NCBI RefSeq assembly: GCF_007747995.1
Contig: NZ_CP036276.1
Coordinates: forward strand, 1-64,000
Length of the DNA stretch: 64,000 nucleotides
Direction: 5' to 3'
From: Symmachiella dynata
Lineage (GTDB): Bacteria; Planctomycetota; Planctomycetia; Planctomycetales; Planctomycetaceae
Shown here: piece by piece, positions 14,370 through 32,061 of the stretch
How the letters are laid out: each line of letters begins with the position of its first letter
Numbering within the stretch: the stretch's first letter is position 1
Translations under genes and position numbers: made by a program
Notes under the pieces: generated by a model
Databases searched by the model: none
What the model saw: the letters and a program-made list of their open reading frames with translations, nothing else
What the model was told of the DNA's origin: nothing

Positions 14370-14858
14370 TTGATCAGTCCTCCCGACAATCCGCTTGATG
14401 ATCATAAGATCTACATGGCCAAAGCATTGGATCAGGCGCGTGCGGCCTATGAGGAGGGGGAAGTTCCGGTCGGGGCGGTGATTGTGCATGGCGGGCGGAT
14501 TATTGCCGAGGCACACAATCAACGCGAAGCGCTGAATGATCCCACCGCGCATGCGGAGATGATCGCCATCACCCAGGCGGCTGAGGCGTTGGAATCGTGG
14601 CGGCTGCTGGATTGCGTGCTCTATGTCACGCTCGAACCCTGCCCGATGTGCGCCGGAGCGATTGTGCAGGCACGGATACCGGCGGTGACGTACGGGACGA
14701 CCGATCCCAAAGCAGGGGCCTGCCAGTCGCTGTATACGATCACCAGTGACCCACGGTTGAATCACCAGTCGACGATCGTGGGGGGCATTCTTATGGAGGA
14801 GTGCCGGGACCTATTGAGACAGTTCTTTGCTGAACAGCGGGCGCTGGGCAAGAAATAA
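14370..14858 (+). CDS. tadA: Nucleoside deaminase, probable tRNA(adenine34) deaminase
   Basis: Zinc-dependent deaminase that converts wobble adenosine to inosine in tRNA-Arg. Seen: [19 protein letters not shown], the HAE motif with His61 and Glu63, and PCPMC with Cys91 and Cys94, giving the full zinc site of the cytidine-deaminase fold. The length of 162 residues fits TadA. TTG 14370 is used as start because the family helix begins well before the first ATG (14415, residue 16); an ATG start would remove part of it. Guanine deaminase is the main alternative, but TadA is more consistent with VPVGAV and the C-terminal RQFFAEQR. Confidence 0.85.
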
Positions 14859-29855: not shown

Positions 29856-30317
29856 TCACCGCCGGTCCGGGTCGCGGAGCATCGGTTCCAGTTCTTCGAC
29901 GAAGTCGTTGACGTCCTTGAATTCCCGGTAGACCGAGGCGAAGCGCACAAAGGCGACTTGATCGACGCCGCGGAGGATATTGAACACACGCTCGCCGATG
30001 TAGGGTGAGGGGACCTCGCGTTCAAAATTCTGATAGACGTCCGTTTCGACTTTGTTGACGATTTCCTCGATCTGCTCGTCGCTGACCGGTCGTTTGAAGC
30101 AGGCCTTTTCTAGTCCGGCGCGAATGTTGTGCCGATCAAAGGGGACGCGGTTGCCATCCTTTTTAATCACCTTGAGGGGCGCTTCTTCGACTTTTTCATA
30201 GGTCGTAAAACGGCGGCCGCAGTCCAGGCATTCGCGTCTCCGGCGAATTGCGTGATCCTGACTGGCTCGTGAATCGGTGACTTTGGTTTCGTCGTGGTGG
30301 CAAAAAGGACACTTCAT
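29856..30317 (-). CDS. nrdR: Transcriptional repressor NrdR
   Basis: Repressor of ribonucleotide reductase genes that senses ATP/dATP. Seen: a zinc ribbon with Cys3, Cys6, Cys30 and Cys33 (MKCPFC and [12 protein letters not shown]), then the ATP-cone domain [20 protein letters not shown] through [11 protein letters not shown] and [14 protein letters not shown]. From ATG 30317 the product is 153 residues, the normal NrdR size. The longer frame back to 30389 adds 24 residues not found in the family. GGAG lies upstream of the chosen ATG. NrdR boxes were not identified in the window, and no nrd genes are nearby. Confidence 0.95.
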
Positions 30318-30645
30318 GAGAAGCGTACTCCGCATATCTACAGGTCGTTTCAAATCCGACGGATGCGTCACGCGAATGTTGTGATTCACAGTCGCGACGA
30401 CAGGCGCACCCAGGTTTTGAAACTGGATCTAGGCAAACTCGAGAACATTTCTCCATCGGAAACGGCGCCGGATGGGTTTCCGGTGGAGAAATCTCCCAAC
30501 TCGTTATCCGCCAAGTACTAGCGTAGCTGATGCGCAGACTGTTTTCCAGAGGGATTGCCCCCGTCAAGCTCGGGCGACCGTTTCTGACGTGGAGAACGTC
30601 GCTGGCAGAGCCTCGTGCCGGAGCTGCTGTTGCACATATGTCAAC
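30318..30645. other. Gene-free stretch upstream of nrdR
   Basis: Nothing clear seen. The promoter of nrdR on the - strand should lie here. Confidence 0.4.
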
Positions 30646-30679
30646 TAAAAATGGGCGTCGCCCTGGGGGGCGCGCCCAT
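30646..30679 (-). terminator. Candidate intrinsic terminator downstream of the structured RNA candidate
   Basis: On the - strand ATGGGCG pairs with CGCCCAT (+ coordinates 30651-30657 and 30673-30679) and is followed by a T-run (A at 30647-30650 plus the stem's closing A). It would end leftward transcription coming from lpxI or from the RNA candidate. Confidence 0.6.
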
Positions 30680-30736
30680 TTGGTCTGGAAGCAGCGACGC
30701 GGTCTGTGACCGGTGTGCCATGCGAGGCGAGAGAAG

Positions 30737-30948
30737 AAAAAGGTGACGGTTTCAGGGTCGGTGAATTTTACGAGTCGACTTGAGGGGATTGGGGAAGTGA
30801 ATTCGTGGGGTGGGTTAAAAATCTCTCAACTTAAGGCACAGTGAGGTCTCTCAGGTCTCACCATGTTTTTGTCGGATCAGCGGGGTGACCCGACCACTTC
30901 TACATTAGAGGAGCCCGCAAAAAGCGGCCTTCCACAGAAACCGTCACC
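30737..30948 (-). ncRNA. Candidate structured non-coding RNA of unknown class, about 212 nt
   Basis: No open frame explains this segment. Its two ends form a perfect 12-pair helix: GGTGACGGTTTC (30742-30753) with GAAACCGTCACC (30937-30948). On the - strand the 3' side of this helix is followed by five T (30737-30741). Inside are GAAGTG (30794-30799) with CACTTC (30895-30900), hairpins GTGAG/CTCAC (30841-30861) and GTCGG/CCGAC (30871-30894) within that arm, and CCGC-AAAAA-GCGG (30915-30927). Together they give a branched fold. A second terminator-like hairpin lies at 30646-30679. Known 6S, RNase P, SRP and tmRNA signatures were looked for and not found. Orientation and limits are inference. 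Confidence 0.5.
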
Positions 30949-31106
30949 AATGGGTCTATAACGTTGTCTTGTACAAAATTTCGTTCAATCAACTGTCTGT
31001 TTGTATTGGATTCCGCCAGGATGCATTTCTTGATGGGATCGCTGTGTACGACGGCAAGCCGTCGGTTTGGGGTTTTACGTTCCGACGCTTTCCAATTTGG
31101 ATTTCC

Positions 31107-32000
31107 TTACGCGCACTGTTTGAGCCGGACTTCTTCGGCGTTGAGTGAGACGATGGTAATCCCGAATTTATTGGCCAGTTGCACGACCTCTTGTTCGTCG
31201 AGCAGGATGGTTTTGTCACTTTCGATGGCCAATACTTTGGCCCCGGACTCATGCATGATTTGTATTGTTTGGATGCCGACAGTGGGAACGTCAAACCGCA
31301 TGTCCTGTTGAGGCTTGGCGACTTTGACCACGGTGAACCCCCCTTTTTTGCACAACTCCCCAGCCCGACGGATCGCCTCGTCTGTCCCTTCGATGGCTTC
31401 GACGGCTAACACGGCTGTTTCGCGGACGGCGATACTTTGGCCGACATCTAACCGGCCCATCTCCTTGGCCAACTCCCAGCCAAAGTTGATATCTTTCCAT
31501 TGCGAAGGGCTAGGTCGTTTTTTCGTGAGGAATCCATGTTTCACGACGATCTCCGGACAGTAATTCAGGGCGGATTCAAAAATGATATTGTCGCGCGCGA
31601 ACTCTTTGATCACGGCTAACAATAAGGTGTCGTCTTTTTTATCGCGTGCGGCGTACGTCATCAACATGTGTGCGGCCCGCCAGTCGGGAATCATCCGTAA
31701 CCAGCGGTAGGGGTGAAAGAGCACGACCTTTTCGATCTTGCCGGCCATGACCGCACGATCGACGCCGACTTTTTTGAAACGGCGAATGGCTTTGCCGACC
31801 TTAGAGATGGCCACGCCCACATACGTGTCGCAAACGTCGGCCAACTCCTCTGAGGCCATGCCGAGCACGCCAACAGCGTGTACGGAAATGCCTTGCCGCC
31901 GCGCCGCTTGTGCGAAGACGAAGGGGAACCGACCCGCGCCCGCCAGCAAGCCGATGCTTTGCGGCGAACTTGATGGTATGTTGTTGTTGGAACTATCCAT
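31107..32000 (-). CDS. lpxI: UDP-2,3-diacylglucosamine diphosphatase LpxI (DUF1009)
   Basis: Hydrolyses UDP-2,3-diacylglucosamine to lipid X in lipid A synthesis, at the inner face of the membrane. Seen: GLLAGAGRFPFVFAQAARRQG at the start of the N-terminal domain, VDRAVMAGKIEK, LLLAVIKEFARD, and the C-terminal DUF1009 core with GQSIAVRETAVLAVEAIEGTDEAI, MRFDVPTVGIQTI and ESGAKVLAIESDKTILLD. The product has about 297 residues from ATG 32000; TTG 32021 is also in frame. It lies 61 bases after lpxD on the same strand, so the two lipid A genes are probably one operon. Confidence 0.93.
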   Translation of the reverse strand: MDSSNNNIPSSSPQSIGLLAGAGRFPFVFAQAARRQGISVHAVGVLGMASEELADVCDTYVGVAISKVGKAIRRFKKVGVDRAVMAGKIEKVVLFHPYRWLRMIPDWRAAHMLMTYAARDKKDDTLLLAVIKEFARDNIIFESALNYCPEIVVKHGFLTKKRPSPSQWKDINFGWELAKEMGRLDVGQSIAVRETAVLAVEAIEGTDEAIRRAGELCKKGGFTVVKVAKPQQDMRFDVPTVGIQTIQIMHESGAKVLAIESDKTILLDEQEVVQLANKFGITIVSLNAEEVRLKQCA

Positions 32001-32061
32001 GTCGCTGTGATGAACTAACAAGTGTTTTTTTGGATTTTGTGAACGAAGCGTGAATGACCTG

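Follow-up and report, generated by a model that had tools for sequence, protein, structure and literature searches.

A conserved structured RNA lies just downstream of lpxI in the window (the whole stretch of DNA analysed, 64,000 nucleotides of Symmachiella dynata contig NZ_CP036276.1), and it carries a hairpin with an invariant UGAGARA loop. Leaders of pilin-like genes and multi-hairpin arrays have this loop as well. The RNA and the motif family are well supported. From them we infer that the RNA is transcribed, that a protein binds it and that this protein is titrated. The structured RNA is real and its recognition hairpin, common to several kinds of transcript, is new. The RNA itself is apparently undescribed; literature searches turned up no account of it. 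The loop common to the lpxI RNA, the leaders and the arrays suggests a previously undescribed RNA-based control circuit.

A conserved RNA downstream of lpxI

The first-pass annotation had proposed a structured RNA between nrdR and lpxI, in a gap of about 790 bases. The gap measured 787 bases, from the stop side of lpxI (31107) to the probable nrdR start (about 30319), and the parts of the RNA are given in Table 1. The segment including its U5 tail is 212 nt long. Its ends, GGUGACGGUUUC and GAAACCGUCACC, are perfect complements on the minus strand and make the 12 Watson-Crick pairs that had been claimed for them. Our reading also confirmed the U5 tract and the second terminator-like hairpin on that strand, and the alignment placed this hairpin in the sister genome G001 as well. 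The claim that the segment has no open frame was right insofar as long ORFs are missing, but the plus strand does contain trivial ones (43 aa). The possible second loop site, AAGUUGAGAGAUUUUU, was identical across all three genomes of the genus and its local fold was weak. Between the RNA and nrdR, at 30439-30499 (minus strand), there was a long imperfect palindrome, AUUUCUCCACCGGAAAC...GUUUCCGAUGGAGAAAU, which was also present in G001 and for which Rfam returned only miRNA matches at chance level.

Table 1. Positions in the window of the lpxI-linked RNA, its parts and the flanking genes
Feature	Position	Strand	Basis or remark
Whole conserved RNA with U5 tail	30737..30948	-	5' end near 30948, 3' end near 30737
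P1 closing helix, 5' arm GGUGACGGUUUC	30937..30948	-	Sequence reading, covariation
P1 closing helix, 3' arm GAAACCGUCACC	30742..30753	-	Sequence reading, covariation
U5 tract, immediately 3' of P1	30737..30741	-	Sequence reading
Second terminator-like hairpin AAAUGGGCG..CGCCCAUUUUUA, strong, with U-run	30646..30679	-	Sequence reading and fold
P3 hairpin GUCGGGUCA-CCCCGC-UGAUCCGAC, CCCGC invariant in loop	30871..30894	-	
P4 signature hairpin, stem and loop ACCUGAGAGAC, core UGAGARA	30838..30864	-	33.6 bits with model R2
Possible second, degenerate site AAGUUGAGAGAUUUUU, UGAGAGA core	30816..30833	-	Tentative
GAAGUG, predicted partner of CACUUC, enclosing P3 and P4	30895..30900	-	Predicted fold
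CACUUC, 3' partner of GAAGUG, within conserved C-rich strand	30794..30799	-	Alignment and predicted fold
lpxI, upstream, same strand as the RNA	31107..32021	-	Pfam LpxI_N and LpxI_C
nrdR, downstream gene	29856..30389	-	Pfam ATP-cone and Zn_ribbon_NrdR; likely ATG start near 30319

Dinucleotide shuffling, with 1,000 rounds each, produced a perfect inverted repeat of at least 12 pairs in 6 rounds for the 787-base gap and in 1 for the 310-base segment 30646-30955, in agreement with the earlier statement that 12-pair ends are unlikely by chance in about 210 bases. The closing helix by itself is modest evidence; conservation decides the matter. When both strands of 30646-30955 were folded, as had been suggested, the minus strand reached -107.6 kcal/mol (z = -5.27) and the plus strand was less distinct (z = -2.15). 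At gathering and permissive thresholds, Rfam 15 had nothing relevant for this segment, and it found only a tRNA in six related loci. The earlier failure to recognize a common RNA agreed with the Rfam search. 6S RNA (RF00013) is similar in being about 200 nt long with paired ends, but its sole match in the genome is elsewhere, at 4749073-4749271.

Plain DNA similarity extended only to two genomes of the same genus. We fetched 80 loci via lpxI and compared them with the RNA. Seven of them (L005, which is genome G002, L006, L011, L012, L036, L067 and L069) had it just 3' of lpxI on the same strand, and covariance model R1 was built from these seven and the window. A covariance search found the full RNA in nine of 170 Planctomycetaceae genomes, in one copy per genome and always downstream of lpxI. 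The R1 scores of these nine were 123-171 bits, partly by construction because eight of the nine sequences had been used to build the model; the window sequence, itself in the alignment, matched at 30736-30946 with 157 bits. The order of lpxI and the RNA was kept in the homologues examined, and the RNA started 18-157 nt past the lpxI stop. The other lpxI loci, including those of other genera, yielded no further match by R1 or by paired ends. A class-wide search for the exact loop plus CACTTC returned the window only, the pattern being too strict. In L084, starting at about position 976, we observed a 38-base perfect inverted repeat that lies downstream of lpxI and has an outer span of 227 bases.

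The pairing was indeed conserved in relatives. Other genera have homologues at the corresponding site that show compensatory changes, which supports a minus-strand structured non-coding RNA. Covariation was tested on the MAFFT alignment A5, which has eight sequences and was not fitted to the structure. In P1, P3 and P4 together, 87.3% of cells were paired compared with 27-45% in slid controls, a comparison that favours the tested structure because it was picked from these same sequences. Sixteen pairs had changes on both sides (9.9 in shuffles), and the covariation score was 0.497 compared with 0.242 in shuffles, none of 500 shuffles being as high. P1 was paired in 100% of cells in the eight sequences, with two pairs changed on both sides. 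Eight of the nine P3 pairs had changes on both sides, and two registers among the homologues lowered the P3 score. Independent folds of all nine RNAs recovered P1, P3 and P4. In most of the nine predicted folds the G-rich 5' segment paired with the C-rich 3' segment, and in several the GAAGUG-CACUUC pairing was formed around P3 and P4. Folding z-scores of the sense strand ranged from -3.6 to -7.6 across the nine homologues, and the antisense strand was weaker in eight of them.

The UGAGARA hairpin in leaders and arrays

The loop of P4, (A)CCUGAGAGA(C), is invariant and its stem changes freely; weak R1 matches pointed to further loci bearing hairpins of this type. Of 150 family genomes searched for exact ACCTGAGAGACC, 100 were hit, often with tandem copies 27-113 nt apart. 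Stems of at least five pairs were present in 15 of 30 loci drawn from this search, while the chance of such a stem per site is below 1% with random flanks. Among the loci fetched to that point, the same held for 62 of 100 sites of CCTGAGAGA and 11 of 17 of CCTGAGAAA; 28 of 29 sister 9-mers had no such stem, the exception being CCTGAGGGG (two of four sites). Some loci, having been fetched more than once, enter these counts repeatedly. When loci were taken regardless of the motif, namely those fetched for lpxI, tadA, CsrA and ANTAR, stems were found at 12 of 59 sites, each of the 12 downstream of lpxI or near tadA; permuted words had stems at 3 of 364. We aligned 41 hairpins selected for the presence of a stem; each of the eight pairs showed changes on both sides, and the loop was CCUGAGARA in every one of the 41. 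The loops are 9-11 nt long, on stems of about 5-11 bp, and the hairpins are often single. In the window's genus there is only one strong site per genome.

The signature hairpin hardly occurs outside one planctomycete family. A search of 392 genomes across the phylum found it in 13 genomes of Planctomycetaceae and, with weaker scores, in two outside (G456 and G474), numbers that are a lower bound because stricter filters were used. The hairpin of G474 did not adjoin a pilin gene. Two loci from another family, L164 and L166, were set aside as probable chance matches: L164 is apparently in coding sequence, and neither has supporting context.

Long 5' leaders carry one to three signature hairpins, some 100-500 nt ahead of genes whose products begin like DERGFIISAELVLxATxxVIGLxxGL..AIGSLNQSY. 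We call this protein family pilin-like from its N-terminus; Pfam and NCBIfam had no name for it. Among 25 family genomes, 8 of the 11 strong loci not linked to lpxI were such leaders, and the remaining three were the array of G007 and two intergenic loci, L160 and L163. Each genome had one cluster of hairpin leaders, though it had several to many pilin-like genes. Leader and lpxI RNA were clearly present together in only two of the nine genomes with the lpxI RNA (G010 and G223), and no member of the pilin family was found in the window's genus at E 1e-6. At L160 around 1500 (G024:C87), a C-rich stretch and a terminator came after one signature hairpin; this locus resembled the lpxI RNA, with no clear model match outside the hairpin. 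At L163 around 1500 (G019:C576), two UGAGARA hairpins adjoined a gene for an NtrC-like response regulator.

Arrays of three to five hairpins with a terminator were located near tadA in G278, G007 and G030. Their loops have the form [CU]NUGAGARA, and GAGAGA tracts separate the hairpins. The arrays were at about 1361-1560 of L098, about 1340-1570 of L165 (minus strand) and about 2262-2500 of L182. An array was also expected in the window, since tadA is at 14385-14855, and none was found there.

Sigma-54-like promoters precede arrays and leaders more often than chance predicts. All three arrays were preceded by a site similar to TGGCAC-N5-TTGCA that matched at 10 or 11 of 11 positions, and a score of at least 10 was reached in 0.7% of shuffles. 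Scores of at least 9 of 11 were reached by 10 of 14 pilin leaders, compared with 9% of shuffles. Upstream of the pilin leaders in L096, L115, L117, L131, L132 and L133 we also observed degenerate short repeats such as GATTGTGCCAATTGTAACGATTGT, which are possibly regulator-binding sites. Upstream of the lpxI RNA, no sigma-54-like score exceeded 8 and no sigma-70-like promoter was found. Thus, the lpxI RNA would most simply be a 3'-UTR product of lpxI.

Possible roles of the lpxI-linked RNA

We tentatively prefer the explanation that the RNA is a small RNA that docks and titrates a putative RNA-binding protein, as CsrB and EutX do, and we regard it as having a little under an even chance. The lpxI strand would yield a non-coding RNA about 210 nt long, or about 310 nt if it extends to the second terminator. 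This RNA would arise by processing of the 3' end of the lpxI transcript or would start at a promoter within lpxI. P1 would close it into a rod whose head bears two hairpins, and the P4 loop (A)CCUGAGAGA(C) would be the docking site of a protein that recognizes UGAGARA loops. A loop-reading protein would be expected to leave such a trace: a loop that stays the same on drifting stems, across several unrelated transcripts and in part as tandem copies. Because leaders and multi-hairpin arrays present the same loop, the protein would be titrated, or else delivered, by the lpxI RNA, and its activity would then be tied to lpxI expression. There are precedents for the titration of an mRNA-binding protein by RNAs that bear its target site, namely EutX/Rli55 (PMC5821096) and Csr/Rsm (PMC4005645). 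Against titration, a single strong site per genome is a weak sponge, and the lpxI RNA is limited to those nine of 170 family genomes, the leader being clear in only two of them. The negative promoter searches upstream of the lpxI RNA also count against it. As the window's genus has no pilin genes, the target in the window's species must be something else.

Other explanations agree with part of these observations, the main rivals being a cis role and base pairing. The RNA might be a cis-acting element of the lpxI 3'-UTR, a structured end through which the lpxI mRNA is protected or regulated, its hairpin bound by a protein that affects no other mRNA. The short distance to the lpxI stop leaves scant room for a promoter, and the terminators come after the RNA, both as this explanation would have it. 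However, pilin leaders and tadA-side arrays have this loop too, so the partner is not specific to lpxI, and a branched fold of 200 nt exceeds the needs of a protective end; we consider it rather unlikely. A small RNA that pairs in trans, using the invariant loop and C-rich strands (CCCGC, UCACUUCCC and UCCCC) against G-rich ribosome-binding sites, would account for the conserved C-rich segments and the terminator-like ends. It is unlikely, considering that an identical loop in the RNAs and the mRNA leaders does not make them mutually complementary partners and that some of the C-rich strand is engaged in predicted pairs within the RNA.

Hairpins arranged in tandem in the long 5' leaders of a single gene family also bring to mind small-molecule-binding loops, riboswitch-like as in guanidine-II. 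This seems quite improbable, because the copy number varies from one to several, the spacing is variable, the hairpins also occur outside leaders (in the lpxI RNA and the arrays) and none of the loci scanned matched a riboswitch in Rfam. That the palindrome arose by chance or is mobile, and has no function as RNA, is largely refuted and hardly credible. A 12-pair repeat arises about once per 170 shuffles of such a gap, so that some are expected over many gaps, but covarying homologues at the same place are not. A known repeat, which the first-pass annotation had named as a possible cause of the palindrome, failed as an explanation: there is one copy per genome, and fixed loops on stems unrelated in sequence are the opposite of a copied repeat. 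A REP-like repetitive palindrome was rejected for the same reasons.

Beyond the titration of a protein by the lpxI RNA, it is possible, and we propose it with more reserve, that Planctomycetaceae have an undescribed post-transcriptional regulon, with a protein that reads UGAGARA, pilin mRNAs as its targets, and sigma-54-driven arrays and the lpxI RNA as its sponges. If this is true, the protein would repress or activate pilin mRNAs via the tandem leader hairpins. The findings offer the family a candidate circuit of RNA regulation that has a defined recognition motif and is tied to pilin-like surface proteins and lipid A synthesis. Which protein reads the UGAGARA loop becomes a testable question.

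Comparison with known systems

The Rhodopirellula-1 motif is a candidate cis-regulatory RNA of Proteobacteria and Planctomycetes without an Rfam accession (Weinberg 2010; PMC2864571). The present hairpin is nearly limited to one planctomycete family, and identity of the two is possible.

ANTAR sites are dual hairpins with 3-bp stems and hexaloops that have A at position 1 and G at position 4 (PMC3369931). Hairpins with loops of 9-11 nt and stems of at least five pairs, often single, do not fit an ANTAR-responsive RNA. ANTAR proteins were absent from ten hairpin-bearing genomes (G004, G007, G008, G012, G015, G016, G018, G019, G022 and G024) and present in the window's genus, the window's genome having one ANTAR-domain protein at G000:C1:5371381-5371542. 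EutX/Rli55, which sequesters EutV (PMC5821096), is similar to the present system in being a small RNA that bears the hairpin type of target mRNA leaders (PMC5821096, PMC3369931).

CsrA recognizes loops of the consensus ANGGAX (PMC4005645). The UGAGARA loop lacked the GGA core (ANGGA) in 41 of 41 hairpins, and the window RNA has one clear and one degenerate site, not many repeated ones; it was therefore rejected as a CsrA-sequestering RNA of the CsrB/RsmZ kind. CsrA-family proteins (PF02599) were found in 40 of 40 genomes, at 2-16 per genome and seven in the window's genome, and the sequences viewed retained the usual MLVLSR start and HR motif. Ubiquitous CsrA fits poorly as the partner of a loop without GGA. 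A CsrA paralogue with changed specificity may be the partner; if the reader is not such a paralogue, it would represent a new class of bacterial RNA-binding regulator.

The tadA-side arrays, which do have many repeated sites and end in a terminator, look like CsrB-type small RNAs. As with CsrB/RsmZ, hairpins of one loop motif are repeated in an RNA that ends in a terminator, and mRNA leaders (here those of the pilin-like genes) have that loop too. A difference is that the promoters of arrays and leaders look sigma-54-like. The proposed regulon, if true, would be a third sponge-type system besides Csr/Rsm and ANTAR. The type of mechanism that we propose is known, and its parts are new.
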